Of a stretch of DNA of 64,000 nt, positions 6,955 through 22,789 are shown piece after piece (position 1 is the first letter of the stretch; every line of letters starts with the position of its first letter). Below the pieces are notes generated by a model. That model saw nothing but the letters and a program-made list of their open reading frames with translations. It was not told where the DNA came from and made no database searches. The stretch lies in assembly GCF_002934455.1 (NCBI RefSeq), contig NZ_PTIR01000004.1, positions 248,001 through 312,000 of the forward strand, read 5' to 3'. The position numbers and the translations under genes are program-made. The stretch comes from Trinickia symbiotica. Lineage in GTDB: Bacteria > Pseudomonadota > Gammaproteobacteria > Burkholderiales > Burkholderiaceae.

Positions 6955-7508
6955 ACGCGCGTTCCTTGCGCCTCGGCGCCGCTCGACGCTGCCGCCGCGC
7001 GGCGGCGGAACAGCGGCTGCGGAATGTCGACGGCGGCCTGGTACTGCACTGAAAGCTCGCTGAATGCCTTCAGCGCATCGTGGATGTCCTTGTCCGCACG
7101 CACGGCGAACGCGTCGAAGCCGCAGCGGGCCATGTAATTGAGCTGATCGCGCAGAACGTCGCCGATCGCGCGCAACTCGCCGCGCCAGCCGTAGCGTTCG
7201 CGCAAAAGTCGCGCGGTGCTGTAGCCGCGGCCGTCGCGAAACACCGGGAAATCGACGCCGATCAGCGAGATCTTGTCGAAATCGCCGACCAGATCGGCCG
7301 GTTCGTCGGCGGGTGCAACCCAGACGCCGAGCGATTCGACGCCGCGCGCCGCCACGAGCGCTTCGCGCGCTTCCTTCCAGAGCGCGAACGGCACGAGGAT
7401 GCGGCCCGCGGGCAGCGCATCGACGGCGGGCAGCCCGCCGTCTTCGGCCGCGCGCACGATCTGCCAGTCGTCCGCCACGACTTCACGGTTTCTGATAATC
7501 GAAGTCAT
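6951..7508 (-). CDS. DUF934 family protein of the sulfite reductase operon
   Basis: This 185-aa protein starts MTSIIRNREVVADDW at 7508 and belongs to the family of unknown function annotated DUF934, which is commonly found between cysI and cysH in beta- and gamma-proteobacteria. Visible features are RILVPFALWKEAREAL, IGVDFPVFRDGRGYSTARLLRERYGW and IGDVLRDQL. The stop overlaps the start of cysH by 4 nt and cysI ends 32 nt upstream, so it is in the same operon. An accessory role in sulfite reduction is inferred from context only. Confidence 0.88.
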   Translation of the reverse strand: MTSIIRNREVVADDWQIVRAAEDGGLPAVDALPAGRILVPFALWKEAREALVAARGVESLGVWVAPADEPADLVGDFDKISLIGVDFPVFRDGRGYSTARLLRERYGWRGELRAIGDVLRDQLNYMARCGFDAFAVRADKDIHDALKAFSELSVQYQAAVDIPQPLFRRRAAAASSGAEAQGTRV

Positions 7509-7540
7509 CTGCAAATGTTCCTTGCTCTCGTTCGCTTCGG

Positions 7541-9220
7541 TCAGGCGTGCGCCGGCTGGCGGGACGCGTAGACCCGTTCCTTGAACGGCGCGATGCCGAT
7601 CCGATTGAACGTGTCGATGAAACGCTCGCCGTCGATGCGGTTGTCCACGAAGGTGTCGATGACCTTCGACACCACATCGGGCATTTCCTCGGCCGAGAAC
7701 GAAGGACCGATGACGCGGCCGAGCCGCGCGCCGTTCTGGCCCGTGCCCTGCTCGCCGCCGAGCGACACCTGGTACCACTCCGCACCGTCCTTGTCGACGC
7801 CGAGCACGCCGATGTTGCCGACGTGATGGTGTCCGCACGAATTCATGCAGCCCGAGATGTTGAGCGAGAGCTCGCCGAGATCGTAGACGTAGTCGAGATC
7901 GTCGAAACGATGCTGGATCGCCTGCGCGATCGGAATCGACTTCGCATTCGCGAGCGAGCAGAAGTCGCCGCCGGGGCAGGCGATGATATCGGTGAGCAGT
8001 CCGATGTTGGGCGTCGCGAAGCCATGCTGCTTCGCGCGCTCCCAGACGGCGAACAGATCGCGCTTCTTCACGTTCGCGAGAATGAGGTTCTGCTCATGCG
8101 AGACGCGCAGCTCACCGAACGAGTATTCGTCGGCCATATCGGCCGCCGCTTCCATCTGCGCGTCCGTCACGTCGCCGGGGGCGGTGACCGTCGGCTTCAA
8201 TGAGAGCGTCACGGCGGCGTAGCCCGGCACCTTGTGCGGCCGCACGCTGCGCTCGACCCAGCGCGCGAACGCGCGGTTCTCGAGCAGATGCTTCTCGTAT
8301 GAAGCATCCGTGTCCGAAAGCTTCTCGTATGCAGGCGGCTGGAAATATTGGGCGACGCGGTCGAACTCCTCCTGAGTGAGCGTCGAAGGACCGTCCTTCA
8401 GATGCTGCCACTCCTCCTCGACCTGCTCGGCGAACTTTTTCGCGCCGAGCGCTTTCACGAGAATCTTGATGCGCGCCTTGAACAGATTGTCGCGCCGGCC
8501 GAACCGGTTGTAGACCCGCAGGACCGCTTCGCAGTACGTGAGCAGATGCTGCCAGGGTAGATTTTCGCGGATGACCGGACCGACGATCGGCGTGCGCCCG
8601 AGCCCGCCACCGGCGAGAATCGCGCAGACGACTTCGCCCGCCTCGTTCTTCGAAAGATAGACGCCGAGATCGTGGATCTGAACGGCGATGCGATCTTCCT
8701 TGGAGGCCGAGACGGCGATCTTGAACTTACGCGGCAGCCAGGCGAACTCGGGGTGGAACGTCGACCATTGGCGCAGGATCTCCGCCCACGGGCGCGGATC
8801 GACCACTTCGTCGGGCGCGATGCCCGCGAACTGATCGGCCGTGATGTTGCGAATGCAGTTGCCCGACGTCTGGATCGCATGCATCTGCACCGAAGCGAGC
8901 TTCGCCAGAATTTCGGGCGTCTCCTCGAGCTTGATCCAGTTGAACTGCATGTTCGTGCGCGTCGAGAAGTGGCCGTAGCCGCGATCGTGCTCGCGGGCGA
9001 TCCGCGCCAGCATGCGCAGCTGATCGCTGCGCAGATTGCCGTACGGAACCGCGATACGGTGCATGTACGCGTGACGCTGCATGTAGAGACCGTTCTGCAA
9101 GCGCAGCGGACGAAACTCCTCCTCGCTCAATTCGCCCGACAGGCGGCGGCGGACTTGGTCGCGGTACTGCGCGACGCGCTCGTCGACGATTGTCTGATCG
9201 TACTGATCGTATTGGTACAT
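7541..9220 (-). CDS. cysI: Siroheme sulfite reductase hemoprotein (nitrite/sulfite reductase family)
   Basis: CysI reduces sulfite to sulfide in six electrons. The 559-aa protein has the duplicated ferredoxin-like half-domains and the siroheme/[4Fe-4S] ligands CPGGDFCSLANAKS and ISGCMNSCGHHHVGNIG, with all four cysteines in place. No CysJ-type flavoprotein gene is nearby, so electrons probably come from ferredoxin or another reductase. It is the first gene of the operon cysI-DUF934-cysH-cysD-cysN-cobA, read away from cysB. Confidence 0.92.
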   Translation of the reverse strand: MYQYDQYDQTIVDERVAQYRDQVRRRLSGELSEEEFRPLRLQNGLYMQRHAYMHRIAVPYGNLRSDQLRMLARIAREHDRGYGHFSTRTNMQFNWIKLEETPEILAKLASVQMHAIQTSGNCIRNITADQFAGIAPDEVVDPRPWAEILRQWSTFHPEFAWLPRKFKIAVSASKEDRIAVQIHDLGVYLSKNEAGEVVCAILAGGGLGRTPIVGPVIRENLPWQHLLTYCEAVLRVYNRFGRRDNLFKARIKILVKALGAKKFAEQVEEEWQHLKDGPSTLTQEEFDRVAQYFQPPAYEKLSDTDASYEKHLLENRAFARWVERSVRPHKVPGYAAVTLSLKPTVTAPGDVTDAQMEAAADMADEYSFGELRVSHEQNLILANVKKRDLFAVWERAKQHGFATPNIGLLTDIIACPGGDFCSLANAKSIPIAQAIQHRFDDLDYVYDLGELSLNISGCMNSCGHHHVGNIGVLGVDKDGAEWYQVSLGGEQGTGQNGARLGRVIGPSFSAEEMPDVVSKVIDTFVDNRIDGERFIDTFNRIGIAPFKERVYASRQPAHA

Positions 9221-9430
9221 TCGGGGACCCCAGGTTGTTCTGCGCCGCGCCCTGGTTACGCGACGCCCGAATCGCTATCGACGCGCAAAGAGCGGCAGGA
9301 CCTAAGACCCTCCGCTCATTTGCTAATGACCGAAACTGCTATGCATATTGAAAAACCTGCGCAGATCGTAATAAACTCGTCTTATATTTCAAACGACTAA
9401 AAAATTCTGTCCTTATGCCATGGGGTTATT
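9221..9430. promoter_or_regulatory. cysI/cysB divergent regulatory region
   Basis: The 210-nt divergent gap is clearly A/T-rich from about 9320 to 9415, in contrast to its GC-rich surroundings. It must hold the cys operon promoter (minus) and the cysB promoter (plus). CysB binding here is expected from the known LysR-type control of cys genes, but I did not identify a defined box. Confidence 0.5.
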
Positions 9431-10372
9431 ATGAACCTGCACCAATTTCGGTTCGTGCGCGAAGCCGTGCGGCAGAACTTCAACCTGACCGAGGCTGCCA
9501 AGGCGCTCTACACGTCGCAGCCGGGCGTGTCCAAGGCGATCATTGAGCTCGAGGACGAACTGGGCGTCGAAATCTTCACGCGACACGGGAAGCGCGTGCG
9601 ATCGCTCACCGAGCCGGGGCGCATCATCCTCGCGTCCGTTGAGCGGATCCTGCAGGAAGTCGAGAGTCTGAAGCGCGTCGGCAAGGATTTCGCCGCTCAG
9701 GACCAAGGCAATCTCGTCATCGCCGCGACGCATACTCAGGCGCGCTACTCGCTGCCGGGCGCCATCGCCGAGTTCAAGAAGCGCTTTCCGAAGGTGCACC
9801 TTTCGATTCTGCAAGGTAGCCCGACGCAGGTGGCCGAAATGGTCATGCACGATCAGGCCGATATCGGTATTGCGACGGAGGCCATCGGTAGCTATAAGGA
9901 GCTCGTCTCGCTGCCGTGTTTCCAGTGGCATCACGTAGCGGTGATGCCCGAAGGCCACCCGCTGCTCGAACGCAAGACGCTCTCGCTCGAGGACCTTGCG
10001 CAATATCCTCTGATTACTTATGAGGCCGCATTTGCGGGCAGGACGAAGATCAACGAGGCTTTCCATCGGCGCAACCTCACGCCCGATGTCATCCTCGAGG
10101 CGATCGATGCCGACGTCATCAAGACCTACGTCGAGCTCGGGCTCGGCGTCGGGATCCTCGCCGACATCGCGTTCAACGGCGATCGCGACAAGCACCTGCG
10201 AGGAATGCCGGTCGGGCATCTGTTCGGCACGAATCTCACTCGGATCGCGCTGAAACAGGGGGCTTACCTGCGTAGCTATGTCTATACGCTCGTCGAACTG
10301 CTGTCACCCACGCTCACTCGCAAGCTCATCGAGCAAGCGTTGAAGGGCGAGCATGAGAACTACGAGCTTTGA
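9431..10372 (+). CDS. cysB: LysR-family transcriptional regulator CysB
   Basis: CysB activates sulfate assimilation genes in response to N-acetylserine/O-acetylserine. The 313-aa protein opens with MNLHQFRFVREAVRQNFNLTEAAKALYTSQPGVSKAIIELE, the winged-helix LysR domain. It retains the CysB-type effector region with IAATHTQARYSLP, where the TTHTQARY element is characteristic. It faces away from the cys operon across a 210-nt A/T-rich gap. Confidence 0.95.
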   Translation: MNLHQFRFVREAVRQNFNLTEAAKALYTSQPGVSKAIIELEDELGVEIFTRHGKRVRSLTEPGRIILASVERILQEVESLKRVGKDFAAQDQGNLVIAATHTQARYSLPGAIAEFKKRFPKVHLSILQGSPTQVAEMVMHDQADIGIATEAIGSYKELVSLPCFQWHHVAVMPEGHPLLERKTLSLEDLAQYPLITYEAAFAGRTKINEAFHRRNLTPDVILEAIDADVIKTYVELGLGVGILADIAFNGDRDKHLRGMPVGHLFGTNLTRIALKQGAYLRSYVYTLVELLSPTLTRKLIEQALKGEHENYEL

Positions 10373-10439
10373 CTCATACTGAGTTCCGAGTCGAGGGCTC
10401 TTCAACGTAACGAGCTTTTCACGCCAAGGGAGAAACTGA

Positions 10440-11597
10440 ATGCGGTTGTCGTGCCAACTGCGCCGCGCGCTCGCGCTCGCCGCCTTCGCGCTCGCGGGTC
10501 TCGCACATGCCGATATCAAGGTCGGGATCGATCTTTCCTCGACCGGCCCTGCCGCCGCGATCGGCATCACGAGCAAGAACGCCATTCTGATGTGGCCGGC
10601 GACGATCGCCGGACAGAAGGCGCAATACATTGTGCTCAACGACGGAACGGACCCCGGGGCCGCCGTTGCAAACATCCGCAAGCTCATCGATGAGGACCAC
10701 GTCGACGTGATCGTCGGGCCGAATATCACACCAGCCGCGCTGGCCGCGCTCGATCCCGTTGCGCGCGCGCAAACGCCGATGATCACGCTCGTCGGCTCGG
10801 GCAGCGTGGTCGAACCGCAAGAGGGGAATCGCATCTGGGCGTTCAAGATGGCGCAGACCGATGCCGCCATGGCCGATGTGATGACGCGATACATGTCGAA
10901 TCACGGTGTGAAGACGGTCGGATTCATCGGGTTCGCCGATAGCTACGGCGAAAGCTGGCTCAAGGAGTTCACGAAGTTCGCCGAACTGCGGCATATCAGC
11001 CTGGTGGCGACGGAGCGGTTCAATCGCAACGACGCTAGCGTGACGGGGCAAGTGCTCAGGCTGATGGCCGCGAAGCCCGATGCTGTCCTGATTGCCGGCG
11101 CCGGTACACCGGCCGTGCTGCCGCAACGAACGCTCGTCGAGCGCGGATTCAAGGGGCCGATCTATCAGACGCACGGGATTGCGACGCCCGAGTTCATCAA
11201 GCTCGGCGGGAAGGACGTGGAAGGGACGCTCTTTCCGACGCAACCGGTCGTCGTCGCGCGGACGCTACCGGCGGATCACCCGGCGAAGAAGGCGGCAATG
11301 GCGTTTGTGGACGCCTACGAAGCGAAATACGGTGCGGGGACGGTCACGCAGTTTGCCGGCGACGCGGCCGGCGTTTATCCGCGGCTTCAAGATGCGGTGG
11401 GTCGCGCGTTGAAGGCGGCGCAGCCGGGGACGGTGCAGTTCAGGGTCGCGCTGCGCGAGGCTTTGGAGCAAGCGCATGAGGTGGTTGTGCCGAATGGCGT
11501 CGTGAATACCAGCGCGAAAGATCACGTGGGGCTCGATCGACGCGCGAGTGTGATGGGGGTCATCAAGGGTGGGAAGTTCGTGTATTTGAGTCAGTGA
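10440..11597 (+). CDS. Periplasmic substrate-binding protein, LivJ/LivK type (orphan)
   Basis: The 385-aa product has an N-terminal signal peptide (about residues 1-24, LALAAFALAGLAHA) and the type I periplasmic binding fold seen in amino-acid/amide ABC importers: DIKVGIDLSSTGPAAAIG, then VDVIVGPNITPAALAAL. It stands alone 67 nt after cysB, with no permease or ATPase genes beside it. Ligand unknown; the position next to cysB suggests, but does not show, a sulfur-compound ligand. A GC-rich hairpin (11596-11614) overlaps the stop codon. Confidence 0.85.
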   Translation: MRLSCQLRRALALAAFALAGLAHADIKVGIDLSSTGPAAAIGITSKNAILMWPATIAGQKAQYIVLNDGTDPGAAVANIRKLIDEDHVDVIVGPNITPAALAALDPVARAQTPMITLVGSGSVVEPQEGNRIWAFKMAQTDAAMADVMTRYMSNHGVKTVGFIGFADSYGESWLKEFTKFAELRHISLVATERFNRNDASVTGQVLRLMAAKPDAVLIAGAGTPAVLPQRTLVERGFKGPIYQTHGIATPEFIKLGGKDVEGTLFPTQPVVVARTLPADHPAKKAAMAFVDAYEAKYGAGTVTQFAGDAAGVYPRLQDAVGRALKAAQPGTVQFRVALREALEQAHEVVVPNGVVNTSAKDHVGLDRRASVMGVIKGGKFVYLSQ

Positions 11598-11682
11598 GCG
11601 CGGTGCCCGCGCTCGTGCGGGGTCCTCGGCAGTCCGGTGCGATCGGGACCGGCTCCGGCGCTACGCCAAAGGCGCCACCAGC

Positions 11683-11711
11683 TTGCCGGCGCACCGGTTT
11701 TGCGCCATAAT
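11683..11711 (+). promoter_or_regulatory. Predicted sigma70 promoter of tRNA-Leu
   Basis: TTGCCG (11683-11688) and CATAAT (11706-11711) are separated by exactly 17 nt. Transcription would start about 30 nt upstream of the tRNA 5' end. This is a match to the consensus only. Confidence 0.6.
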
Positions 11712-11750
11712 CGCGCTCTTCCGTCGGCGCATCAGGCGTCGGCAAAGACT

Positions 11751-11835
11751 GCCCAGGTGGTGAAACAGGTAGACGCAGGGGACTCAAAATCCCCCGCCGC
11801 AAGGCGTGCCGGTTCGAGTCCGGCCCTGGGCACCA
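11751..11835 (+). tRNA. tRNA-Leu (anticodon CAA)
   Basis: An 85-nt class II tRNA. The acceptor stem GCCCAGG pairs with CCTGGGC, followed by A and an encoded CCA. The anticodon loop CTCAAAA presents CAA for leucine UUG codons. A long variable arm and the TTCGAGTC T-loop are present. A tRNA-Leu followed by accessory genes is a classic island insertion target, but I found no repeat of the tRNA 3' end downstream in this window. Confidence 0.97.
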
Positions 11836-11869
11836 GAAGTTGTTCCGGCGAATGCCGCTGAATCCCGAG

Positions 11870-11904
11870 AAACCCCGTGCGATCAAGGTCTTACGGGGTT
11901 TTTT
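11870..11904 (+). terminator. Rho-independent terminator after tRNA-Leu
   Basis: AAACCCCGT (11870-11878) pairs with ACGGGGTTT (11893-11901), followed by a T run (TTTTTT ending at 11904). It lies 35 nt after the tRNA 3' end and so ends that transcript. Confidence 0.85.
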
Positions 11905-11999
11905 GCCTTCTAGGCCCACTCAAGAGTGGTGATAATCGCTTGCCCCTCAGTGCCGGGGATAGTCTTGGCGCATCGTGGCGTCTCCAATCGATCAACGTC

Positions 12000-12317
12000 T
12001 CAAGCCGCGTGCGTCTGCGGCGTCGAGGCGAGCGGCTGCACCGCCAGACGCAGGCCCATCGCCTTGAGAATGGCCGTCAGGCTGTTCAAGGCAGGGTTGC
12101 CCTTCGGCGAGAGCGTGCGGTAGAGCTGCGTCGGATTCAGGTGCGCCTGCTCGGCCACCGCCTGCACGCCGCCGAACGCCTGTGCGAGCTGGCGCAGTAC
12201 GGTCAGCAGCTCGGCCTGGTCGCCATCTTCGAGGATGCCATTGATGACATCGAGCGCGAGCGCCGGGTCGCTGCTGTACAGCTCGGCCATCGCCTCATCA
12301 TGGGTTCTGCTTCTCAT
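12000..12317 (-). CDS. HigA-like antitoxin (addiction-module antidote)
   Basis: A 105-aa protein starting MRSRTHDEAMAELYSSDP at 12317. Its second half is a helix-turn-helix of the XRE type (AFGGVQAVAEQAHLNPTQLYRTLSPKGNPALNSLTAILKAMGL). This is the layout of the antidote proteins paired with small RelE/HigB-type toxins. It overlaps the upstream toxin gene by ATGA (12314-12317), so toxin then antitoxin are made from one message, the order seen in higBA-type modules. It probably neutralises the toxin and represses the operon. Confidence 0.85.
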   Translation of the reverse strand: MRSRTHDEAMAELYSSDPALALDVINGILEDGDQAELLTVLRQLAQAFGGVQAVAEQAHLNPTQLYRTLSPKGNPALNSLTAILKAMGLRLAVQPLASTPQTHAA

Positions 12318-12649
12318 TCGTCGGTTCTCCGTTGCCAGTCCTGCCAGTAGTCCACCGCGCGCTCGATGTCCGCGTCCTGCGCACGCTTGTCGCCGCCGCA
12401 GAGCAGCAGCACCAGCCGCCGCCCTGACTGGGCGTAATAGACCCGGTAGCCTGGCCCCACGTCGACGCGTAGCTCCCACACCCCATCACGACAGAACCTG
12501 TGATCGCCGAAGTTCCCTTGCTCGATGCGAGCCACGCGCCGGATGATCGCCACCTTGGCCTTGCCATCCCGCAGGTGGCTCAGCCAGTCAATGTAGAGAT
12601 CCTTCTGCCCATCAGCCGTCAGGTAGTGCTCGATTTGATACATGGTCAT
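12314..12649 (-). CDS. RelE/HigB-family toxin (Gp49-like)
   Basis: A 111-aa basic protein of the RelE/ParE superfamily, with the family core GKAKVAIIRRVARIEQGNFGD, ELRVDVGPGYRVYY and RLVLLLCGGDKRAQDADIERA. Members are ribosome-dependent mRNA endoribonucleases that halt growth when the antitoxin is lost. The start may be 12649 (MTMYQIEHY) or 12643 (MYQIEHY). It is the first gene of the two-gene module. Confidence 0.85.
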   Translation of the reverse strand: MTMYQIEHYLTADGQKDLYIDWLSHLRDGKAKVAIIRRVARIEQGNFGDHRFCRDGVWELRVDVGPGYRVYYAQSGRRLVLLLCGGDKRAQDADIERAVDYWQDWQRRTDE

Positions 12650-12650
12650 T

Positions 12651-12666
12651 TTCGTTTATAGACGAA
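12651..12666. promoter_or_regulatory. Possible operator of the toxin-antitoxin operon
   Basis: TTCGT (12651-12655) and ACGAA (12662-12666) form an inverted repeat immediately upstream of the toxin start. This is the position where an XRE-type antitoxin would bind to autoregulate. The repeat is short, so confidence is low. Confidence 0.35.
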
Positions 12667-13144
12667 TTAAAGTCAAGACGAAGGCACGACGACCAACTCC
12701 CGAATTGCCGCGACACTGACACGACAATTCGGGGCGGCATCACAGCATGCCGATGATCGCAGCCTTCAAAAATTAACCGCTACTGAATTAAGACCGATTT
12801 ACCCGTTTGCAGACGGATCGCTAGCGTCAGAGTCGGGTGCTCCAAACTCTCGGCATGAGGTCGGTCCAGATAGGCATAGGGACGCGCCAGCCCTGTGTGT
12901 GATGTACCGCATCTCGCCATGCTCTCGGTACTTGGCAACGTGGAGGCACGGATTGGAGCCTCGGCCGCAGCGCGGCCGAGTGAGCGCTAGTCAACGTGGG
13001 ACGAAATCCGCCCATCGCACACGGGGCAAGCTTTATACAGCAGGCTAACGCGGGGCGGCCTCGCCGGACGAGGCCGCCCTCCGACCGCCAATAAACGCAA
13101 ACGTCGCTTCGATTGCGAACTAGAAGATTGGCTGCCTCGATAGT
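12667..13144. other. 478-nt region without a convincing gene; inverted repeats
   Basis: No open frame here looks like a protein. It contains three strong inverted repeats: CCCGAATTG/CAATTCGGG (12699-12707 and 12725-12733), CTCGGCCGC/GCGGCCGAG (12960-12968 and 12972-12980) and an 11-bp stem GGGCGGCCTCG/CGAGGCCGCCC (13053-13063 and 13069-13079). The last lies 66 nt past the NYN gene stop and may end that transcript, although no T run follows it. The first surrounds a motif that recurs at 41329. Confidence 0.6.
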
Positions 13145-14425
13145 CTAGGTGCCTGACGCAGGCGTCTTGCGCGAGCGGCTGGATCGCGACGTGGATTTAC
13201 GCGCTCCCTTTGGGGCTTTGGCTTTGGCCGCTGGCTCCGCTGGCGGCTGTGCCGCGGAAAGCTCCTCGTGCGCCGATTCGGCCGCAACGGTATCCGCGTT
13301 CTTCACGGAAGCTTTGCGTGCCCTTGTGCGGCGGGGCTTCGGGGCCTCCTGCGCCTCTGCCTCCTGTGCCTCTAAATCGACCATCGCCTCAATGGCGTGC
13401 TCCGGTGACGGTCGGTCCGCTGCCACCAAAGGCTCTACCAGCAATTCGGCTGCCGCCGGCGCGGGCAACGGCTCGTGGGCGTGCTTGCGGCCACCTTTGC
13501 TCTTTTTCCTCCCTTTGGAGCCCGTCGCTTCAACCTCAGCACCACTATCCGGGAGAACCGGCCCTGCTGCGACTTGCTTTTGCGTGTCGACGACTCCCGT
13601 CCGTGTGGCCCGATAGACAAAGGCGCCGGATTTATCGTCGCGCCCGACCTCCAGCAAACCGCGCGCTTGCGCCTCATCGAGCAAATTGCCGAAGGCTCGA
13701 AACCCGTAGTAGGACTCGCTGAAGTCCGGCTTGCGCCGCTTGATCGCGCTTTTGAGCACCGACGCCCAGATCTTGCCGCTCTCGCCGCGCTCGGATGCAA
13801 GCGCCTCGAAAGTCTCGACGGCGATCGCAATCGCCTTCGCCTTGCGTGCCTCCATCTCCTGGAGTGGATGCTTCTCTTCGTCGGCCGCGCGTTTCGCCGG
13901 TGGCGAGCCCGAATCGCGCATCTCTCGCTTCGCGAGCGCTCGCTGCTGTTCGCGCACGAGATCGTCGTAGAAAATGAACTCGTCGCAGTTGGCGACGAGC
14001 AACTCCGACGTCGAATTCTTCACGCCGATGCCGATCACCTTCTTCGCGTTCTCTCGCAATTTCGAAACGAGCGGCGAGAAATCGGAATCCCCGCTGATGA
14101 TGACGAAGGTGTCGACATGCGATTTCGTATAGCAAAGATCGAGCGCATCGACGACGAGCCGGATGTCGGCCGAATTTTTACCCGACTGCCGCACATGCGG
14201 TATTTCGATGAGTTCGAAGCTTGCCTCGTGCATCGCCGACTTGAATCCCTTGTAACGATCCCAATCGCAATAGGCCTTCTTGACGACGATGCTTCCTTTG
14301 AGCAGCAGCCGCTCGAGAACCGGCTTTATGTCGAATTTCTCGTACTTCGCATCGCGAACGCCCAGCGCGACGTTTTCGAAGTCGCAGAAAAGCGCCATGT
14401 TGACGCCCTCTTGAGGTAAAGCCAT
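13145..14425 (-). CDS. NYN-domain nuclease-like protein with LOTUS/OST-HTH domain
   Basis: A 426-aa protein starting at ATG 14425 with a GGAG ribosome site 8 nt upstream. Residues about 10-155 are a NYN (PIN-like) domain with the acidic residues of the presumed metal site: D15 in ALFCDFENVA, D87 and D93 in ADIRLVVDALDL, D113 and D115 in ISGDSDFSPL. Residues about 200-272 resemble an OST-HTH/LOTUS RNA-binding domain. The last 150 residues are a low-complexity Ala/Lys/Glu/Pro tail. RNA binding and cleavage are inferred from the domains; the target is unknown. Confidence 0.85.
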   Translation of the reverse strand: MALPQEGVNMALFCDFENVALGVRDAKYEKFDIKPVLERLLLKGSIVVKKAYCDWDRYKGFKSAMHEASFELIEIPHVRQSGKNSADIRLVVDALDLCYTKSHVDTFVIISGDSDFSPLVSKLRENAKKVIGIGVKNSTSELLVANCDEFIFYDDLVREQQRALAKREMRDSGSPPAKRAADEEKHPLQEMEARKAKAIAIAVETFEALASERGESGKIWASVLKSAIKRRKPDFSESYYGFRAFGNLLDEAQARGLLEVGRDDKSGAFVYRATRTGVVDTQKQVAAGPVLPDSGAEVEATGSKGRKKSKGGRKHAHEPLPAPAAAELLVEPLVAADRPSPEHAIEAMVDLEAQEAEAQEAPKPRRTRARKASVKNADTVAAESAHEELSAAQPPAEPAAKAKAPKGARKSTSRSSRSRKTPASGT

Positions 14426-14661
14426 GAGTTTCTCCAGCCGATGCGGCGCAGCGGTTAATTCGATAGACGCACATGATAGCCGCGTTGCAAGGCAAGCCCG
14501 GAATCCGATGCGGATACCAGGCCATGGAGGCCACGTGGAGCGACTGCACGCGGCCATCCGGCCGGTTGAAGGTGGGCTACTCACCACTACGCGACGGCCT
14601 CCATCGAATGCTCTGCACGAGCGCCGTTCCCGTTCATCGGCGGTCATGCAATCAGCCGCGA

Positions 14662-14976
14662 TCAGTCACAAAAAGCGGCCTTTGGCTTGGCAGTCGCGTC
14701 GCAAGCTTTGCTTCCGGCCGCGTGGATTGTGACAACTTTATCCGTGCCCTCGTAACTGCACACCAGATAGGGATCGACGTCTTTGAGTGAATCCCACGCT
14801 TGAAGCGATACCAGGTTCTTGGGTGGGCCGTCATAGAGCTCCACATGCTTGAGCGCGTGATTCACGCTGCCCTCTGTCAGAGGCGACGGGCATGCATAGC
14901 GGTGTCGTTCCGTGGCATGGCACGCTGTACATGCGCAGAGCGCGACCGCCATCAAAAGGCGCTTATTGAACGACAT
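14662..14976 (-). CDS. Secreted small protein, immunity-like (STY0301-like)
   Basis: A 104-aa protein starting MSFNKRLLMAVALCACTACHA at 14976. It has an N-terminal signal peptide (possibly a lipoprotein signal) and four cysteines in the mature part (YACPS, LVCSY, KACDA, AFCD), which suits a disulfide-bonded periplasmic protein. It overlaps the upstream amidase-like gene by 14 nt. Position, size and export fit a periplasmic immunity protein that protects the cell from that amidase. The resemblance to the STY0301 family is from memory and needs a search. Confidence 0.7.
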   Translation of the reverse strand: MSFNKRLLMAVALCACTACHATERHRYACPSPLTEGSVNHALKHVELYDGPPKNLVSLQAWDSLKDVDPYLVCSYEGTDKVVTIHAAGSKACDATAKPKAAFCD

Positions 14977-15358
14977 AGTATTGAGTCCCGTCGTCGACCT
15001 TTTTGCCATGACCGTTCCGAAATTGAATGGTCCGCTGCTGCGGGGGATGATCCCGGAGCGCCGTCGGCCCTTTCCATTGATCCAGCACGACGATGCCGGC
15101 TGGCGTTTGGTACAGGTAGATGGCGGCGTGGCTGGTACCGTTCGTGTGATTACCGTAGCGTCCGTTGTCGTCAAAGGTGGCGATGACGGTACCGCGCCGA
15201 ATGTCGTTGTCTCCTTGAACGAGCGATACCTTACGCCACAGCGACGTAGGCGGGACTGTGACGACGGCATGAACGAACGTGACGCATTGGCCGTTACCTA
15301 CGAGTTGATTCCCCTTGACTAGATCATTGGCCTTGCTCATGTTGGCGACGTATGGCAT
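14963..15358 (-). CDS. BPSL0067-family, Tae2-like cell-wall amidase effector
   Basis: A 131-aa protein starting at 15358 behind a strong GGGAGGA ribosome site. It has the papain/NlpC-like pattern: a catalytic-type Cys in NGQCVTFV (C25) and a His in GTSHAAIYLY (H77), plus GTVIATFDDNGRYGN. I recognise this as the BPSL0067 family, to which the type VI secretion amidase Tae2 of B. thailandensis belongs as far as I recall. It has no signal peptide, as expected for a T6SS cargo. No T6SS structural, vgrG or PAAR gene is in the window. Frequent CTA, GTA, GGT and CAA codons suggest acquisition. Confidence 0.75.
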   Translation of the reverse strand: MPYVANMSKANDLVKGNQLVGNGQCVTFVHAVVTVPPTSLWRKVSLVQGDNDIRRGTVIATFDDNGRYGNHTNGTSHAAIYLYQTPAGIVVLDQWKGPTALRDHPPQQRTIQFRNGHGKKVDDGTQYYVVQ

Positions 15359-15549
15359 CGGTCCTCCCTGAACATTCGCGGCACTCTATAGCTGCTTCAA
15401 GACGCGGCGATATCGTACCAATGTTCAGATGTTAGCGGCAGCGCTACGGAGATCGGAGACGCGTGAAGTGAATGGACCTACCCGTACGTCCTAGCCGCGG
15501 GTGGGCCTTCGCCAGCAAGGCTTGTTGATTGACGCCGGCCTCGGGCTGC

Positions 15550-16524
15550 TCAAGGTGCCGACGATGCAGGCTCCGACGGGCGCTCCTCCTTCGCCTTCCG
15601 ATGCGGCAAAAGCGTCCGAAGCCACGAATGACCGTTGACGACGATCAGCCCCGCGAATACGAATACCGCACCGACCACGAACGCAGGCGTCAGTTGCTCA
15701 TGCAGCAGCACCACGCCCCACCCCACGCCGAAGACCGGAGTCATGAACGCCAGCACGCCGAGGCGTGCGGCAAGATAGCGTCGCAACATCGCGAACCAGA
15801 TCAGAAAGCTGGCGAAACAAACGATAAATGTTTGGAACCCGAGACTGATCCAGACCATCGGCGTGCTGTGGAAACGCATCTCGCCAAAGACGGCCGCGGC
15901 TGGCAGCAGAATGACGAATGCGGCGGCCAACTGATAGAACAGCGTTTGGGTGGCCGGCGCCTCGCTGAGCCGACTCGTCCGCACCGCGACGGTCGTCAGG
16001 CCCCAAGCCGCGCCGCCGCACAAACCCAAGAGGTCGCCCAGCATCCATGCCGGCGTTCGCGCGAGGCCGCCCGTGCCCAAAGTCGGCACAAGAAAGGCGA
16101 TTGAGATGCCGATGAAGGCAAGACCGAGCCCACTCCATTGCAAACGCGATAGTCGTTCGTCGGGCAGCCACAGATGCAGGCCGAGGGCAGCAAACATCGG
16201 CGCGGTATAGAGGAACACCACCATGTGCGAGGCGCTCGTCCAGTTCAGGCCCTCCGCCACGAGCAGAAATTCGAGTGCGAAGAGGCTGCCGGTCGTGACT
16301 GCTGCGCGCCGGATCGGCCTCCTCAGCCACTGGTCCCTTGCGACAAAGCGCGCGTAGAACCAGACCAAAAGCGCCGCTACGCCCGAACGCAACGCGAGCT
16401 GCAGAATCGGTGATGCGTCCGCCATGGAAGCCTTGACCGCTACTTGCTGCAGGCTCCAGGTCAGGCAAAGTGCGACCATCATCAGCGTGGCTCGGCCATC
16501 GACCGCTTTTCTCATTGCTCGCAT
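15550..16524 (-). CDS. EamA/DMT-family transporter
   Basis: A 324-aa inner-membrane protein with about ten hydrophobic segments arranged as two EamA repeats, typical of the drug/metabolite transporter superfamily. Such proteins export amino acids and other small metabolites. It is divergent from an AraC-type regulator gene 88 nt away, which is likely to control it. Substrate unknown. Confidence 0.88.
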   Translation of the reverse strand: MRAMRKAVDGRATLMMVALCLTWSLQQVAVKASMADASPILQLALRSGVAALLVWFYARFVARDQWLRRPIRRAAVTTGSLFALEFLLVAEGLNWTSASHMVVFLYTAPMFAALGLHLWLPDERLSRLQWSGLGLAFIGISIAFLVPTLGTGGLARTPAWMLGDLLGLCGGAAWGLTTVAVRTSRLSEAPATQTLFYQLAAAFVILLPAAAVFGEMRFHSTPMVWISLGFQTFIVCFASFLIWFAMLRRYLAARLGVLAFMTPVFGVGWGVVLLHEQLTPAFVVGAVFVFAGLIVVNGHSWLRTLLPHRKAKEERPSEPASSAP

Positions 16525-16612
16525 CCAAAAGAATCCCGACGACAGTATCGATCGCAGGGTTTCGCACTATATAGTTAGAAACTGACATTCGATCCCGCGA
16601 GACCGCCAGCCG

Positions 16613-17437
16613 ATGAAACCAAAGGTGCCAGCGACCACCGCGCACATCCGCCTACCGCCGTTCACCGACGTATTGCCCGTGCCGGTGTTCTTCCGGACGG
16701 AGCGCATGCCTGCGCATGCGAGCTACCCGATCCTGCGACACGCGTGGGGAGAATTCGTCTATTCGTTCAGCGGCGTGACGGAAGTGACGGCCGGCGACCA
16801 GTACTTCCTTGCACCACCGCATCTAGGACTGTGGATCGCACCGGAGACGGAGCACACTGGCTTCAACCATCAAGCGGCCGTGCATTGCTCGATGTACATT
16901 CGCCGGGACTTGTGCAATGGCATGCCCGATTACTCCTGCGCGGTAATGGTGACGCCGCTGGTGCGTGCCATCCTCGAGCACTTGCGCGACCTCGGAAATA
17001 CCCCTGAACCCGAGCCGGCCCGCGAGCGGCTTTTGCGTGTTCTCGTCGATCAGTTGTCCACATGCCGCACGACGGGCAGTTTCATACCACACACGGACGA
17101 CGCACAGCTCAACGCCGTATTGCAGCCTCTGCGCGACGATCCGGCCGACAATCGAACCATCGCGGAATTGGCGGCCGCGTTCAACCTGAGCGAACGTACG
17201 CTGATTCGGCGCTGTCAGACCGAGCTGGGTATGTCGCTGACTGAATGGCGGCAACGGGTGCGGATCGTCACTGCACTGCCGATGCTCAGGAGCGGGCGCA
17301 GCGTGGAAGCTGTGGCGTTGGATCTGGGGTATGCATCTTCGTCGGCGTTCATCGCTATGTTCCGCCGGCTGATGGGATCGAGCCCGAGACGTTTTTTTGC
17401 CGCGGAGTTGACGGGAGCGGCAAACGCAGACCAATAA
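16613..17437 (+). CDS. AraC-family transcriptional regulator
   Basis: A 274-aa protein with an N-terminal cupin-like sensing region (HAWGEFVYSFSGVTEVTAGDQYFLAPPHLGLWIAP) and a C-terminal double helix-turn-helix: NRTIAELAAAFNLSERTLIRR, then VEAVALDLGYASSSAFIAMFRR followed by GSSPRRF. It is divergent from the EamA transporter gene and probably regulates it. The effector is unknown. Confidence 0.88.
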   Translation: MKPKVPATTAHIRLPPFTDVLPVPVFFRTERMPAHASYPILRHAWGEFVYSFSGVTEVTAGDQYFLAPPHLGLWIAPETEHTGFNHQAAVHCSMYIRRDLCNGMPDYSCAVMVTPLVRAILEHLRDLGNTPEPEPARERLLRVLVDQLSTCRTTGSFIPHTDDAQLNAVLQPLRDDPADNRTIAELAAAFNLSERTLIRRCQTELGMSLTEWRQRVRIVTALPMLRSGRSVEAVALDLGYASSSAFIAMFRRLMGSSPRRFFAAELTGAANADQ

Positions 17438-17481
17438 TTGACAGCTCTCTTATACGGCACGGCCTCTAGCACGGGCCGCTA

Positions 17482-18210
17482 CTACTGCAAGCTCTTCTTC
17501 ATTGAGACCGCGTGTCCGAGCGACACATAACCCCGCCGCAAGAGCGCTTCGATCGTCGCCCAATCGCTTTCCGATACACTGCCCGCTTCCTCGCGGGCAT
17601 CGCGAAAGAGCATCGCCTCCGCACGTAGCCGGCCAAACTCCGACGTCGCGCTGACGGGCACCATATACAGCGCTGCCGCTGCCGCCGCGCATGCATCAGC
17701 CAACGCGCCCGGCGGATAACGGTCGCGTTGCCGGTGCACGATCCACCATTCCAGTTCCAGCGAGGCTGCCGGATCGACCCCGAAAGCGCGGTTGCCGGTA
17801 CGACGGACGATTGAGAAGTAAGACTGCAATGCCGGCAAGGCTTTCAGGTAGTCACTGCGCTCTTTGCCTTCCTTGAACGTGAAGGCCGCCGATGCGCCGT
17901 AATAGGCGCCGACATACGACCTCAGCAAAGGAAAGTGATACTGCGTGCGCAGGCTCTTCGCCAGCTCCAGAAAAAGCACGCCGTGCTCGCGGTCATAATA
18001 GGAGCGCCACATTTTTGCTTCGAGCGTCGCTGTCGCGATCGGGTCGAAGCGGCTGAGGTCGCGATCGAGCGGCCAGAAGAGATCGACGGCGATGTAAGAT
18101 GCCAGCGCCGCAATCAGCGCGAGCACCGTGCGTCGCCAATACGCCGGCCGCGCTTTGGAAGCTGGGTGGCGCAGTAACTCAACACTGCCGATGTGCCCGG
18201 ACGGCTTCAT
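17482..18210 (-). CDS. Hypothetical membrane-anchored protein
   Basis: A 242-aa protein that I do not recognise, starting MKPSGHIGSVELLRHP at 18210. One hydrophobic segment near residues 27-46 (RTVLALIAALASYIAVDLFW) suggests a single membrane anchor with the remaining ~195 residues probably periplasmic. That part is rich in aromatic residues and looks helical (AKMWRSYYDREHGVLFLELAK, LELEWWIVHRQRDRYPPG). It is convergent with the AraC gene and 38 nt downstream of the DUF3303-like gene. No function is proposed. Confidence 0.7.
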   Translation of the reverse strand: MKPSGHIGSVELLRHPASKARPAYWRRTVLALIAALASYIAVDLFWPLDRDLSRFDPIATATLEAKMWRSYYDREHGVLFLELAKSLRTQYHFPLLRSYVGAYYGASAAFTFKEGKERSDYLKALPALQSYFSIVRRTGNRAFGVDPAASLELEWWIVHRQRDRYPPGALADACAAAAAALYMVPVSATSEFGRLRAEAMLFRDAREEAGSVSESDWATIEALLRRGYVSLGHAVSMKKSLQ

Positions 18211-18248
18211 TTTGGAATCGCGTCGATATCGAACGCGCGATGGAAAGT

Positions 18249-18530
18249 TTATTTCAGCACGCGCCCGAGCACCTCTCCGAACTCCGCATCTTCGATCACA
18301 GGCGCGATCTCCAGATGCATCAGGTCGTTCCACGAGTAGGCGAATTCAGTCAGTTTCTTCACATCGTCTGTCTCGAGCAAGTCGAAGCCGCCGCCCAGAT
18401 CGGCTCGTGTCCATCTGCCCAGCAGCTTGACGCCTTCTGGCGGAAGCCCGCCCGTCTTCTCGAATCGCTCGATGGCTTCCGCCCTGGACCGTGTATCGGG
18501 GGCCCAGGTGAATGTCAGCATGAATTTCAT
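18249..18530 (-). CDS. DUF3303-like small protein
   Basis: A 93-aa protein starting MKFMLTFTWAPDTRSRAEAI at 18530, with GGAGG placed 5 nt before the ATG. The pattern MKFMLTF...RFEKTGG..PEGVKLLGRW....GGGFDLLETDD matches the small DUF3303 family, whose fold is of the dimeric alpha/beta-barrel kind. Its function is not known. Confidence 0.8.
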   Translation of the reverse strand: MKFMLTFTWAPDTRSRAEAIERFEKTGGLPPEGVKLLGRWTRADLGGGFDLLETDDVKKLTEFAYSWNDLMHLEIAPVIEDAEFGEVLGRVLK

Positions 18531-18735
18531 GGTGGCCTCCATGTCTCCGCTCGTCATCTGAGACGATGCCGGCATCGGGCGCGAGCGACGGATGCATCGT
18601 CCTATCGATAGCCCATGGCCAGCGGAGCGACTGCCTGAATCAATTCTAGGCAACCGATCGCACGCCGTTGCATTTATTCACCTTTGCGTCGATCCGGATA
18701 TCCTTCCGGTAATCACCAATCGACCGGAGAATGAA

Positions 18736-19626
18736 ATGCGTCACCGATGGGCTGGCTTGGCCGCCCTGCTCGGCATAGGCGGCAAGCTGCCGCGCGAGCA
18801 CCCTCGCCCTCTCGCGCGGGGGGAAACGAGCCGCAACGTCATGATGCGCGTCACGCTCGACGCTCAGCATGCCACCCCCGTACGCAAGGCATTGATTCGC
18901 GATTGTCTTGGACAGCCATGGACTATCCGCGTCACGCCGCTCGCAGGCACCACTCGGGTACGGTTGTCGCTTTATCTCCCGAGGACGGCGATCAACGGCG
19001 CGATGCGGCGCGTGGCCGATCTGGCGCCGACCGCCGAACTCGGGCAATTGCTCGACGTCCCGGAAACGCCGACAGGCGTCTGGCGTGATCTTTTGCACCC
19101 CGAGCAGTCGCTCCGTGACGACTCGCATGCTCAAAGTGCAGCGGCAGCAAGCGGCACCGATACGATCGCGCGATTGATCTCCGATGAACGCGTGTTGCTC
19201 GGCCTCGACGTAGCCGACCGAGACGCGCTCTTCACGGTGCTCGGCCATTTCGTTGAACGATACGGCGGCTTACCGGCGGCGACGGTCGCCGCGGGCCTCA
19301 ATGCGCGAGAAGCGCTCGGCTCGACGGGTCTCGGCCGTGGCATCGCCGTCCCGCACGCTCAGGCGGAAGGCCTGCGCGAGCCCATCGTGCTCTATGTCCG
19401 CCCGCGCGAACCCATCCCTTTCGAGGCTCCCGACGACGCACCGGTGACCGACGTCGTCGCGCTGTTCGTCCCGGAATGGGCGAACACGACGCATCTGCAC
19501 TTGCTTGCCGACGTGGCCGAGCGCTTTTGCGATCACCGCTTTCGCGAGCGTCTCCAAGCGTGTGACGATGCGCGTGCCGTCTGCCGCATCTTTCAGGATT
19601 ACGATCGTCCTGTGCTCGGGCGTTAG
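18736..19626 (+). CDS. PTS EIIA (type 2) domain protein with ACT-like N-terminal region
   Basis: A 296-aa protein; I start at ATG 18736 because GGAG lies 6 nt upstream. Residues about 145-290 are a PTS EIIA domain of the fructose/mannitol/PtsN type, with the phosphorylatable His in GIAVPHAQ (H207) and LFVPEWANTTHLHLLADVAERF. Residues about 36-108 show the alternating pattern of an ACT-like fold (MMRVTLDAQHATPVRKALI, WTIRVTPLAG, VRLSLYLPRTAINGAM). No permease (EIIC) or EI gene is near, so a regulatory role is more likely than sugar uptake. Confidence 0.75.
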   Translation: MRHRWAGLAALLGIGGKLPREHPRPLARGETSRNVMMRVTLDAQHATPVRKALIRDCLGQPWTIRVTPLAGTTRVRLSLYLPRTAINGAMRRVADLAPTAELGQLLDVPETPTGVWRDLLHPEQSLRDDSHAQSAAAASGTDTIARLISDERVLLGLDVADRDALFTVLGHFVERYGGLPAATVAAGLNAREALGSTGLGRGIAVPHAQAEGLREPIVLYVRPREPIPFEAPDDAPVTDVVALFVPEWANTTHLHLLADVAERFCDHRFRERLQACDDARAVCRIFQDYDRPVLGR

Positions 19627-19649
19627 CAATCTAGAGCCGACGAGCAGAC

Positions 19650-20240
19650 TCATGCGCGCGGAAACCGCTTATCCCACTCGTTACAGAGCTTACGGAACGA
19701 TCGGCAACGGTCGTAAGCCTGCTGAAGGTCCATCCGCGCCGTGAGTGCGGGCTGGTCCGTTGTTTCTCCGTAAGCGCGCTTTTCCATACGCTCGCGGAGC
19801 CAACCCTTCGCATCTCTGGGTACCTCCGCGTCGATGGCAAGGTCGGCCGCAGCAATTGACAGACCGCGGTACCCGTTCAACGACTCTGCCGCGCCGATAA
19901 ACCACGCCTCAAACTCGCGGTTTGCGAGCACAACAGAAACTTCGCGATGCGGCAGCACCCGCTGCGCCCTGGCCACGACCTCCGGACCAAGCGTAGCCGG
20001 GCAGTGGTCGTCCGCGTCGAGAAGGATTAGAACCCATCCGTCAGTGCCAGCCTTATTGCCCGCAAACTCCAAGTGGCGAACGAACTCCTCTTCCCGATTA
20101 AGAAAGCGATCGCGGTGAACCCGTATAGGTGTTTGAACATCGATATATCCTTGTGCATATCTCCACTCCGCCATTCTCCGCAGTAATACGGGTAGTGCCG
20201 AGACCTCACCATGCCCCTCCACGATACAAGCGACCCTCAC
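19650..20240 (-). CDS. DUF4276 family TOPRIM-like protein
   Basis: A 196-aa protein beginning MRVACIVEGHGE. Two acidic motifs match a TOPRIM-type metal site: E8 in VEGHGE and D75/D77/D78 in LILLDADDHC. DUF4276 proteins are usually paired with an AAA ATPase, as here: the start codon overlaps the ATPase stop by 4 nt (20237-20240). The two probably act as an ATPase plus nuclease-like partner, as in OLD-type and PARIS-type systems. Nuclease activity is inferred. Confidence 0.8.
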   Translation of the reverse strand: MRVACIVEGHGEVSALPVLLRRMAEWRYAQGYIDVQTPIRVHRDRFLNREEEFVRHLEFAGNKAGTDGWVLILLDADDHCPATLGPEVVARAQRVLPHREVSVVLANREFEAWFIGAAESLNGYRGLSIAAADLAIDAEVPRDAKGWLRERMEKRAYGETTDQPALTARMDLQQAYDRCRSFRKLCNEWDKRFPRA

Positions 20241-21436
20241 GAACCGAGCCCCCCGTCAAATAGTGAGGCTTGATGTATCACCTGGTCTTTTATAGCTTCC
20301 GGGTCCGGCTGCAATTGACCCAGCTTCAAGAGCTCGCCGGCGGAAAATAGATGTTTGCGGATCGCCTCGCGGGACGCCGGGTCGATTTGCCCGAGCTTGG
20401 TATCGCCAGCCTCCGAAATTACCGCAAGAATCTGGTCATCGCGGACAGAGACGTCATCGAGCAACTCCGGGCTGTGGCTCGTCACAATGACTTGTGTATT
20501 GTTCGACGCGCGCTCCAAAGCCTCGCGAAGCGCAGCACTCGCCGCAGGGTGCAAGGCAGTCTCCGGTTCTTCGATGCCGATCAACGTTGGAGCGAAATCG
20601 ACGTTGTGCTGGAACAGTGCCGTAAGCACACCGACTGCCCTCAGCGTGCCATCCGACATGTTTTGCGCTGCGAATCGCCAAGGATCTTTGACGCCGGACA
20701 CGTCTTGCATGAATTCCAGCGTCTCCATCGGTCCCACTTGAACGCGCTTGAAACCATGTACGGTCGGCACGACGGTCTGCAGATATTCTTGAATAGTCCG
20801 AAGCGCAGGTGCGTTTACTCGCTCGAGATGACCGATGACACTAGCGATGTTCTCGCCTTCGGGTTTCAACAAGCGGCCCTCCTGGGCCTTCTGCAACTCA
20901 CGCATCAGTTTCGGATTGAGGTTGTAGAAACCCATGCTTGTCAGCGCGTCGAAGACGGGGCGAAATTCGCTCAGGCCCGACAGCGCAACGAGTGCCAGAC
21001 GATCGCCAGTTAGCGCCGGCAGCGTTGCCGCGCTACTTGCTACGATCTGGCCCCGCTCGATCCGATAGTACGGTCCTTTGCGCTGTCCTCCCAAGCTGCA
21101 CTCCTCGGCCTGGACCTCGAAGCCTCGATTCTTGAGAGATCCGATGCTAAAAGCATAGTGTCCAGTCCGATCACCTAGCGTGAAATCCAGTCGGATACCG
21201 AAATGGGTCGGATGGCCAGCGGATCGCCGCCGCACTTCCGCCAAACCACCTCGGACGTTGAGCGCCTGATCGAGCGAGCTTGTCAGGGCATCGACCACCA
21301 GATGCAGCGCATCGACGAAATTACTTTTGCCTGCGCCGTTTGCACCGACAAGGTATGTCAAAGGACCAAGCGCCACGTCGCATCGGCCTATGCTGCGGTA
21401 GTTGCGTAGCACCACACGAGAAATAAATGGCCGCAC
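20237..21436 (-). CDS. AAA/ABC-type ATPase (OLD/RecF-like)
   Basis: A 399-aa ATPase of the AAA_21/OLD-like group. Walker A GANGAGKS is at residues 31-38, preceded by the RecF-like FISRVVLRNYRSIG. An ABC-type signature MSDGT is at 260-264, Walker B LIGIEEPETALHP at about 285-296, and a switch His at 321 (TSHSPELLDD). It has no TOPRIM of its own; that comes from the overlapping DUF4276 gene. Many A/T-ending codons (for example ATT, CTA, ACA, AAA, AGT) set it apart from its GC-rich neighbours and suggest horizontal transfer. Confidence 0.85.
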   Translation of the reverse strand: MRPFISRVVLRNYRSIGRCDVALGPLTYLVGANGAGKSNFVDALHLVVDALTSSLDQALNVRGGLAEVRRRSAGHPTHFGIRLDFTLGDRTGHYAFSIGSLKNRGFEVQAEECSLGGQRKGPYYRIERGQIVASSAATLPALTGDRLALVALSGLSEFRPVFDALTSMGFYNLNPKLMRELQKAQEGRLLKPEGENIASVIGHLERVNAPALRTIQEYLQTVVPTVHGFKRVQVGPMETLEFMQDVSGVKDPWRFAAQNMSDGTLRAVGVLTALFQHNVDFAPTLIGIEEPETALHPAASAALREALERASNNTQVIVTSHSPELLDDVSVRDDQILAVISEAGDTKLGQIDPASREAIRKHLFSAGELLKLGQLQPDPEAIKDQVIHQASLFDGGLGS

Positions 21437-21578
21437 TTTCCTGACCCGACTGGTTGAACAAAAAGCTGATGGTAACAGTTAGCGAGTGCCTCGGAGCGGT
21501 CTCTAGCCAATAGCGCTTCGGTCTCTCCTCGCAACGAAGAGGCGGAAGCCATCAGCGGTCATAAAAGCCAACATGCCG

Positions 21579-22169
21579 TCACTCCTCAGCGAGATCGGCC
21601 GCTACGCCCTGAGCATACTTGGTGACAGCCCGCGCGATGCGTTCGGACAAAACCGGATCCGCCACCGCACGCGCCAGCGTGACGCCGCCCGAGAGCATCG
21701 CAAGCAGCGCGATCGCCGCATCGTCGCGCTCCTTCCCCGAGCCTCCGGCCAGTCCCGTCGATACTTCATCAATCAGGCGCCGCAATTCGGCTTCATACGC
21801 CGCGCGCGTCTCGAAGTCGGCGCGAACCACCTCGGGCGAAAAGCTCGGCAACGCGCAACTCTCGCCAATGTCGCAAGTGCGCTTCGCACCCATGTAGAAA
21901 TCAATAAACGGCTTGAGCCAGCGTTTGCCGCGTGCAGCCTTCATGTCGGCAATCGCGAGCCGCAGCTGCTCCAGGCCGGTCAACACGACCGTCCGGAACG
22001 CTTCGCTCTTCGACTTGAAGTGCCCATAGAACGCACCGTTGGTGACGCCCGCTTCCTTCGTCACGCCTTCGATACCGGATCCGCCGTAACCCTCACGGCG
22101 AAAAATTCGACCTGCGGCGTCGAGGATGCGCGCGCGCGTTTCCTGTTTGTGTTCCGCTGAGTAACGCAT
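21579..22169 (-). CDS. TetR/AcrR-family transcriptional regulator
   Basis: A 196-aa regulator with the TetR N-terminal helix-turn-helix (ETRARILDAAGRIFRREGYGGSGIEGVTKEAGVTNGAFYGHFKSK) and a C-terminal ligand domain. It is divergent from a tautomerase gene across a 130-nt gap that contains a candidate operator (22197-22212). It likely represses itself and the tautomerase gene. The inducer is unknown. Confidence 0.9.
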   Translation of the reverse strand: MRYSAEHKQETRARILDAAGRIFRREGYGGSGIEGVTKEAGVTNGAFYGHFKSKSEAFRTVVLTGLEQLRLAIADMKAARGKRWLKPFIDFYMGAKRTCDIGESCALPSFSPEVVRADFETRAAYEAELRRLIDEVSTGLAGGSGKERDDAAIALLAMLSGGVTLARAVADPVLSERIARAVTKYAQGVAADLAEE

Positions 22170-22196
22170 AGATGTGACCTGTGCTGCAAATTAAAA

Positions 22197-22231
22197 AGAG
22201 AGATCACTCTCTATTGCATAGAGAGAGATCA
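22197..22231. promoter_or_regulatory. Candidate TetR operator with repeated half-site
   Basis: AGAGAG-ATCA-CTCTCT (22197-22212) is a perfect 6-4-6 inverted repeat in the A/T-rich gap between the tetR and tautomerase genes. The element GAGAGATCA recurs as a direct repeat at 22198-22206 and 22223-22231. TetR proteins bind such palindromes between divergent genes. Confidence 0.55.
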
Positions 22232-22299
22232 GTATGTATGCTTAGAGAGCAGTCTGTATTTATACCACTACCACTCATCCATTGACTGGAGGAATCGCC

Positions 22300-22722
22300 A
22301 TGCCGATTACGCTTACGGTGCCGGAAGGCCTACTGCCCCCCGAAGTCGAAACGCAAGTGTTTGCCGAGCTGACCCACGCCCTGCTGAAGGTCGCCGGGCT
22401 AGATGGCAATAGCTTTATGACCGCCAATGTAGTCGGTACGGTCAACGTGCTGCCGAGACGTCATGTGTTCGCGGGCGGAGAGCCCGCCGCCGCCGCATTC
22501 ATCGAATTGAAGCTGCCGGGGGTTGCGCTCGCGACATCCGAATCGAAACAGGCGTTCATCGAAGCGGCGACGAACGCCGTGGAACGGGCCGCGCAAGGTC
22601 GCATTCGGCGCGAGCAGATCTGGACCAATATCGTCTATGCCGCGGACGAGTCGTGGGGCATTGGAGGAAAGGCGTACAGCAACGCGGCACTGGTCACCGC
22701 GATTCAGGCGGCGGCCGGCTGA
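22300..22722 (+). CDS. Tautomerase-superfamily protein
   Basis: A 140-aa protein starting MPITLTVPEGLLPPEV at ATG 22300, behind a GGAGG site 7 nt upstream. An upstream in-frame ATG would place other residues before MP, but this start yields the N-terminal proline that is the catalytic base of 4-oxalocrotonate tautomerase-like enzymes. The length suggests two fused small tautomerase units. The divergent TetR gene probably controls it. Substrate unknown. Confidence 0.8.
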   Translation: MPITLTVPEGLLPPEVETQVFAELTHALLKVAGLDGNSFMTANVVGTVNVLPRRHVFAGGEPAAAAFIELKLPGVALATSESKQAFIEAATNAVERAAQGRIRREQIWTNIVYAADESWGIGGKAYSNAALVTAIQAAAG

Positions 22723-22789
22723 AGGAGAATCGAGTCGAGGGGTGCGCCGGACCGCCGCCATGCCAAGCGGCGGTTCGGCGCCGGCCTCA

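Follow-up and report, generated by a model that had tools for sequence, protein, structure and literature searches.

A HEC-01-type ATPase and DUF4276 gene pair of Trinickia symbiotica as a putative split OLD enzyme of phage defence

The 64,000-nucleotide stretch of Trinickia symbiotica DNA analysed here, in full the window, carries two overlapping genes that pose the question whether an OLD/RecF-like ABC ATPase and a DUF4276 protein act together against phages, and by what means. The ATPase (hereafter A; 399 aa, GTG start) is encoded at 20237..21436 on the minus strand and its partner (B; 196 aa, GTG start) at 19650..20240 on the same strand. The stop of A and the start of B share four nucleotides (GTGA). 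An earlier interpretation made from the letters alone (the sequence-only reading) had placed both open reading frames (ORFs) and their overlap correctly, and had taken them for a single unit and a related, less-studied two-gene defence system. We propose that such pairs are rather probably split OLD enzymes, in which the ATPase gates a Toprim nuclease in defence against phages. This would provide the named candidate system HEC-01 with a concrete, testable mechanism.

Identity and coupling of the two genes

The comparison with hidden Markov models of defence systems that the sequence-only reading had suggested gave a clear result. The best PADLOC model for A is HEC-01A (PDLC04178; 587.2 bits, E 4e-177, residues 2-389) and the best for B is HEC-01B (PDLC04196; 287.9 bits, E 1.1e-86, residues 1-193). 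Pfam assigns A to AAA_21 (95 bits) and B to DUF4276 (50.6 bits, cut-off 30.2). With a match to the ATPase model, a match to a DUF4276-type partner model and adjacent genes, the pair is, as judged by these profiles, a member of HEC-01, an already catalogued candidate defence system. The proposal of a related defence system was thus supported in part, as a candidate system that is already named and listed by PADLOC. A further model named HEC-01B (PDLC04144) matches the ATPase A instead (89.8 bits), so the HEC-01B label extends beyond DUF4276.

HEC stands for Hma-embedded candidate, according to PMC12988326, and a 2024 preprint by Payne and colleagues is cited as the source of HEC-01. No Hma gene was seen beside the pair in the window. 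Among the open-licence PubMed Central papers searched, we found no description of the mechanism of HEC-01, and none matched DUF4276, PF14103 (‘domain of unknown function’) or HEC-01 together with PADLOC.

Is the pair a unit beyond this genome? Relatives of A were collected in one genome scan, and the best 80 of 536 were named as loci (L numbers below). A match to the B profile (at least 15 bits) follows A in 75 of the 80, in 49 of these 75 with an overlap of exactly 4 nt. Five loci have an A gene without a detectable B (L067, L068, L072, L073 and L085), and seven further loci have B frames shorter than 170 aa, which may reflect decay or sequence errors. Approached from the other side, with the general DUF4276 model at E 0.001, a draw of 369 genomes from the class gave matches in 39, and 27 of the 29 matches returned as loci adjoin an ATPase that fits the A profile (exceptions: L160 and L175). 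The pair is a real, conserved two-gene unit. Codon comparison with T. terrae gave proportions of non-synonymous (pN) and synonymous (pS) differences of 0.099 and 0.836 for A, and of 0.159 and 0.931 for B. Since synonymous divergence (dS) is saturated, only the direction of this result is safe, which is purifying selection. In L172 (and G538:C32), two DUF4276 matches lie ∼1.6 kb apart, each with an upstream ATPase match; these are apparently tandem copies of the system.

Predicted folds, active site and possible mechanism

The motifs of an OLD/RecF-like ATPase that had been claimed for A are all present: Walker A at residues 31-38, MSDGT at 260-264, Walker B around 285-290, and H321. They are conserved across an alignment of 81 sequences, in which G31, N33, G34, G36, K37, S38, M260-T264 and E290 reach at least 90% and E289 and H321 are invariant. 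The AlphaFold2 model of A has a mean predicted local distance difference test score (pLDDT) of 94.7 and a predicted template modelling score (pTM) of 0.93, and its fold resembles the heads of Rad50 and SMC proteins. A consists of the ATPase alone, the Toprim-like protein being encoded separately.

For B, the predicted structure (pLDDT 95.9, pTM 0.91) finds its best Protein Data Bank matches, at modest scores, in the Toprim regions of class 2 OLD nucleases. At the sequence level, no solved structure matches B at E ≤ 1, and an alignment of the B profile with one Gabija-like ATPase was not significant; the first Toprim motif was nevertheless aligned.

A Toprim nuclease is recognised by a glutamate after strand 1 and a DxD motif, and in B these are E8, D75 and D77, at positions that agree with the strands of the model. 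The active site of BpOLD, as described in PMC6755086, comprises E400, D455 and D457 (metal A), E404, T506 and E508 (metal B), and K562. In the B model, E8 and E12 follow strand 1, D75 and D77 stand at the end of strand 69-75, E109 and E111 follow the next strand (100-106), and K145 lies within a helix. The spacings within the motifs (4, 2 and 2 residues) equal those of BpOLD. By motif order and spacing, each of the seven published residues would therefore have a counterpart in B: E8, E12, D75, D77, E109, E111 and K145. Among 69 B sequences, D75, E111 and K145 are found in all 69, E109 in 67 and E8 in 64; position 12 is E in 62 and D in 6, and position 77 is D in 63 and E in 3. D78, which the sequence-only reading had named together with E8, D75 and D77, is present in only 52; that reading had missed E12, E109, E111 and K145. 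Its suggestion of a TOPRIM-like partner agrees with both the fold of the model and this complete set of metal-site residues.

These observations suggest the following course of events. A probably forms ATP-dependent dimers, and it would hold B and respond to a cue of infection. It would then license B, a putative metal-dependent nuclease, to cut nucleic acid, and phage growth would be stopped. The cell probably pays the cost, in which case the outcome would be abortive infection. We infer the complex, its gating by A, the nuclease activity, the phage trigger and the abortive outcome.

What would B cut? DNA is slightly favoured, with about even chances, since the folds closest to B belong to OLD domains that cut DNA. 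tRNA or another RNA is a somewhat less probable substrate. The residue layout itself does not decide between DNA and RNA: RNase M5 has the same layout, as PMC6755086 states, and AriB, the nuclease subunit of PARIS, has been likened to RNase M5.

Distribution, neighbourhoods and genomic setting

The pair is sparsely distributed. Within the genus, one genome out of 11 has A (E 1e-50), and a draw of 398 genomes from the family has it in 8 (E 1e-40); these counts include the genome analysed here. The tree joins the window and T. terrae, whose genome falls in another genus group than that of the window, with Achromobacter deleyi (support 100/100) and places them, less firmly, near Stutzerimonas (82/93); Achromobacter ruhlandii stands beside Rhizobacter (100/96). 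This grouping fits transfer between families, and the pair appears to move between them.

Copies on plasmids and phages are very rare. Among 72,556 plasmid records, a single one carries A at E 1e-40, next to a gene annotated as DUF4276; on this Streptomyces plasmid (L182, 5974-12786), the pair adjoins a Gabija-like pair of AAA ATPase and helicase. A single one of 50,697 phage records has A at E 1e-20, with B alongside (L181, 4983-6742); that record is unverified and comes from human faeces. Viral contigs yielded 34 relatives of A (the best with 33% identity over most of the length, several matching over short stretches) and one weak B match; one further contig from IMG/VR, found through B, has both genes (L189, 4772-6576).

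If HEC-01 serves phage defence, its relatives might be expected to lie among other defence genes, as the sequence-only reading had supposed. We compared the 82 nearest genes with 82 distant genes (at least 6.5 kb away) from the 41 of the 80 loci that had enough flank on both sides. At E 1e-20, at least 7 of the 82 nearest genes are defence-like (a lower bound), versus about 4-6 of the 82 distant genes plus up to four mad3 matches resembling generic ABC ATPases. The nearby proteins are DRT1a, TmtA, DrmA and HmaA (among ten scanned) and GajB, JetA and a second HEC-01A-type ATPase in L059 (among 71 others). The distant ones are PDC-M41A, HmaC, REase_I and Vsr, which amount to 4-6 proteins because two names come from two models each. 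Counted as families at E ≤ 1e-20, the numbers are 75 near and 7 far, with overlapping models counted. As the counts per protein are too similar, we do not claim enrichment, and the defence-island argument is set aside. In L081, an HmaA gene lies directly beside the pair, and a homologue of this HmaA occurs within two genes of the pair in 3 of the 80 loci (L050, L059 and L081).

Several neighbourhoods, like these similar counts, weigh against a simple defence reading. In L013, L017, L025 and L027, the pair lies between genes for a biotin carboxylase and a hydroxyacid dehydrogenase, with an HMGL-type gene beyond; in L029, the position of the pair is shifted by one junction, to between the dehydrogenase and the HMGL gene (these operons span around 7300-13700 of the loci, and some identities rest on homology to a Pfam-tested member). 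Several close relatives adjoin housekeeping genes such as YicC (L026) and YchF (L031). In all eight poribacterial loci (L060, L062, L072, L075, L076, L077, L082 and L087; L072 without a detectable DUF4276 gene), the position immediately upstream of the ATPase is taken by a homologous gene, identified as PhyH by Pfam in L062, the one locus tested, and sulfatase-like genes occur within four genes downstream.

Such settings raise the alternative that A and B function in the repair or turnover of DNA or RNA, as RecF- or Rad50-like ATPases do with a nuclease, and are kept for housekeeping. The stable neighbourhoods of the poribacterial and the five carboxylase-operon loci, the likeness of A to Rad50 and SMC heads, and the rarity of plasmid and phage copies all speak for it. 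The patchy occurrence of A within genus and family, the tree groups that cross families, and the accessory position and atypical codon use of the pair in the window (below) argue the other way. PhyH and sulfatase genes are, moreover, very numerous in Poribacteria, and the synteny there may mean little. We regard a housekeeping role as unlikely.

There is also a more speculative view, which we consider improbable, if somewhat less so than a housekeeping role: DUF4276 systems could constitute an OLD class of their own, with the full class 2 set (E, E, DxD, ExE and K) on a free-standing Toprim subunit and with an obligate ATPase. Such systems would spread as solitary cassettes of ∼1.8 kb and lodge where the genes of core-metabolic operons meet, as at the two ends of the hydroxyacid dehydrogenase gene in the carboxylase operon. 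Outside defence islands, housekeeping promoters would thus drive their expression.

In the window, the pair lies in a variable accessory stretch of ∼10.9 kb (11836..22765), whose left edge is a tRNA-Leu (CAA) gene at 11751..11835 on the plus strand, found by ARAGORN and the Rfam tRNA model, and whose right border is an ABC transporter block starting at about 22766. Both edges, including this tRNA, were found in four congeners, in which the stretch measures 148 bp (L111), ∼0.95 kb (L112), ∼2.4 kb (L113) and ∼24 kb (L114-L115). In a fifth congener (L116/L117), the edges lie on separate contigs, and for the remaining five, no long match to the transporter block was seen among the matches listed. 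In L113, the stretch contains the tRNA 3′ end once more (93% over 61 nt), which indicates that the site takes insertions; the interval from tRNA-Leu(CAA) to the transporter block is an insertion hotspot. A tRNA-borne mobile element was considered for the window itself and rejected, as the window has no second tRNA-Leu 3′ end and no element boundary could be shown.

The stretch contains a toxin-antitoxin pair, a NYN gene, an EamA transporter, regulators and the HEC-01 pair, which is flanked by a TetR gene and a gene with a phosphotransferase system EIIA domain. The accessory setting described by the sequence-only reading is borne out by Pfam for the toxin-antitoxin pair (PF05973 and PF21716) and the NYN protein (PF01936, 127 bits); the effector that it also named is unconfirmed, as Pfam gives nothing at E 0.001 for its 131-aa ORF (14963-15358). 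The distance from these genes to the pair is ∼4-8 kb, and the interval holds genes for transporters and regulators. The NYN-domain protein (13145-14647) has a basic tail and weakly matches a PADLOC NYN model (29.5 bits). After the 131-aa ORF, within 14662-15358, comes a small ORF whose start looks like that of a lipoprotein; the two resemble antibacterial effector and immunity pairs of the BPSL0067 type.

The GC content at third codon positions (GC3) of the two genes is 0.634 and 0.628. A set of 40 further ORFs of the window, each 150 aa or longer, has a mean of 0.827 (standard deviation 0.038); these were picked by a window-trained codon model that favours high GC3 and omits most genes of the stretch. 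With eight other genes of the variable stretch at 0.67-0.81, the pair is the extreme of a generally lower-GC3 stretch. The A/T-rich third positions noted earlier are thus real relative to the surroundings, at a GC3 that is still ∼0.63. Scans near the pair for promoters (one, versus 1.1 expected) and terminators (four, versus 2.7 with a standard deviation of 1.6) found nothing beyond chance.

The tight pairing and overlap of the genes, and the toxin-antitoxin pair in the same stretch, could also suggest a selfish addiction or anti-plasmid module, in which B is toxic, A is its antidote and the module is maintained for its own persistence. We consider this very improbable: A comes first, is the larger protein and uses ATP, which would be unusual for an antitoxin, five A genes have no detectable B, and only the single plasmid record was found.

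Comparison with known systems

The closest counterpart is HEC-01 itself, with which the window pair shares gene order, adjacency and strong matches to both models. HEC-04, or IbfA, can be likened to it by description, as it combines the same two activities by domain; there, however, they reside in one fused ABC ATPase-Toprim protein instead of two. PMC12111858 reports HEC-04 to be active against phages T4 and T5.

Class 2 OLD, or Gabija, provides the best fold match for B (GajA), with the same active-site residues in the same order. It combines a fused ATPase-Toprim protein with an adjacent helicase gene, whereas A and B are encoded by separate genes with no adjoining helicase. Membership in Gabija was therefore rejected. 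The Septu and retron ATPase PtuA differs in its partner: PtuB of Septu is an HNH-type nuclease, and the partner here is a Toprim-like protein.

PARIS consists of AriA and AriB and has been proposed as OLD class 4; its trigger is the phage protein Ocr, and it cleaves tRNA. Its ATPase and Toprim proteins are encoded by separate genes, as in the window pair, and of the two designs that the sequence-only reading had invoked, the split PARIS is thus closer than the fused, helicase-associated class 2. This likeness raises the possibility of PARIS-like control, in which A would keep B inhibited until A senses a phage protein, and B, once released, would cleave host tRNA, so that translation stops. 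Such a scheme would differ from ours mainly in the substrate, and in release instead of licensing within a stable complex. Several results make it doubtful, though less so than the other alternatives: B is a DUF4276 protein whose 12 PADLOC matches at E ≤ 1 are all HEC-01B and none AriB, the best AriA model reaches only 91.7 bits with A versus 587.2 for HEC-01A, and the fold of B is matched with higher scores by class 2 OLD DNA nucleases. As B matches no AriB model, membership in PARIS was rejected.

Taken as a split OLD enzyme whose ATPase licenses its Toprim nuclease, HEC-01 would, if this reading is confirmed, form a link between the fused OLD enzymes and the split PARIS-like systems.
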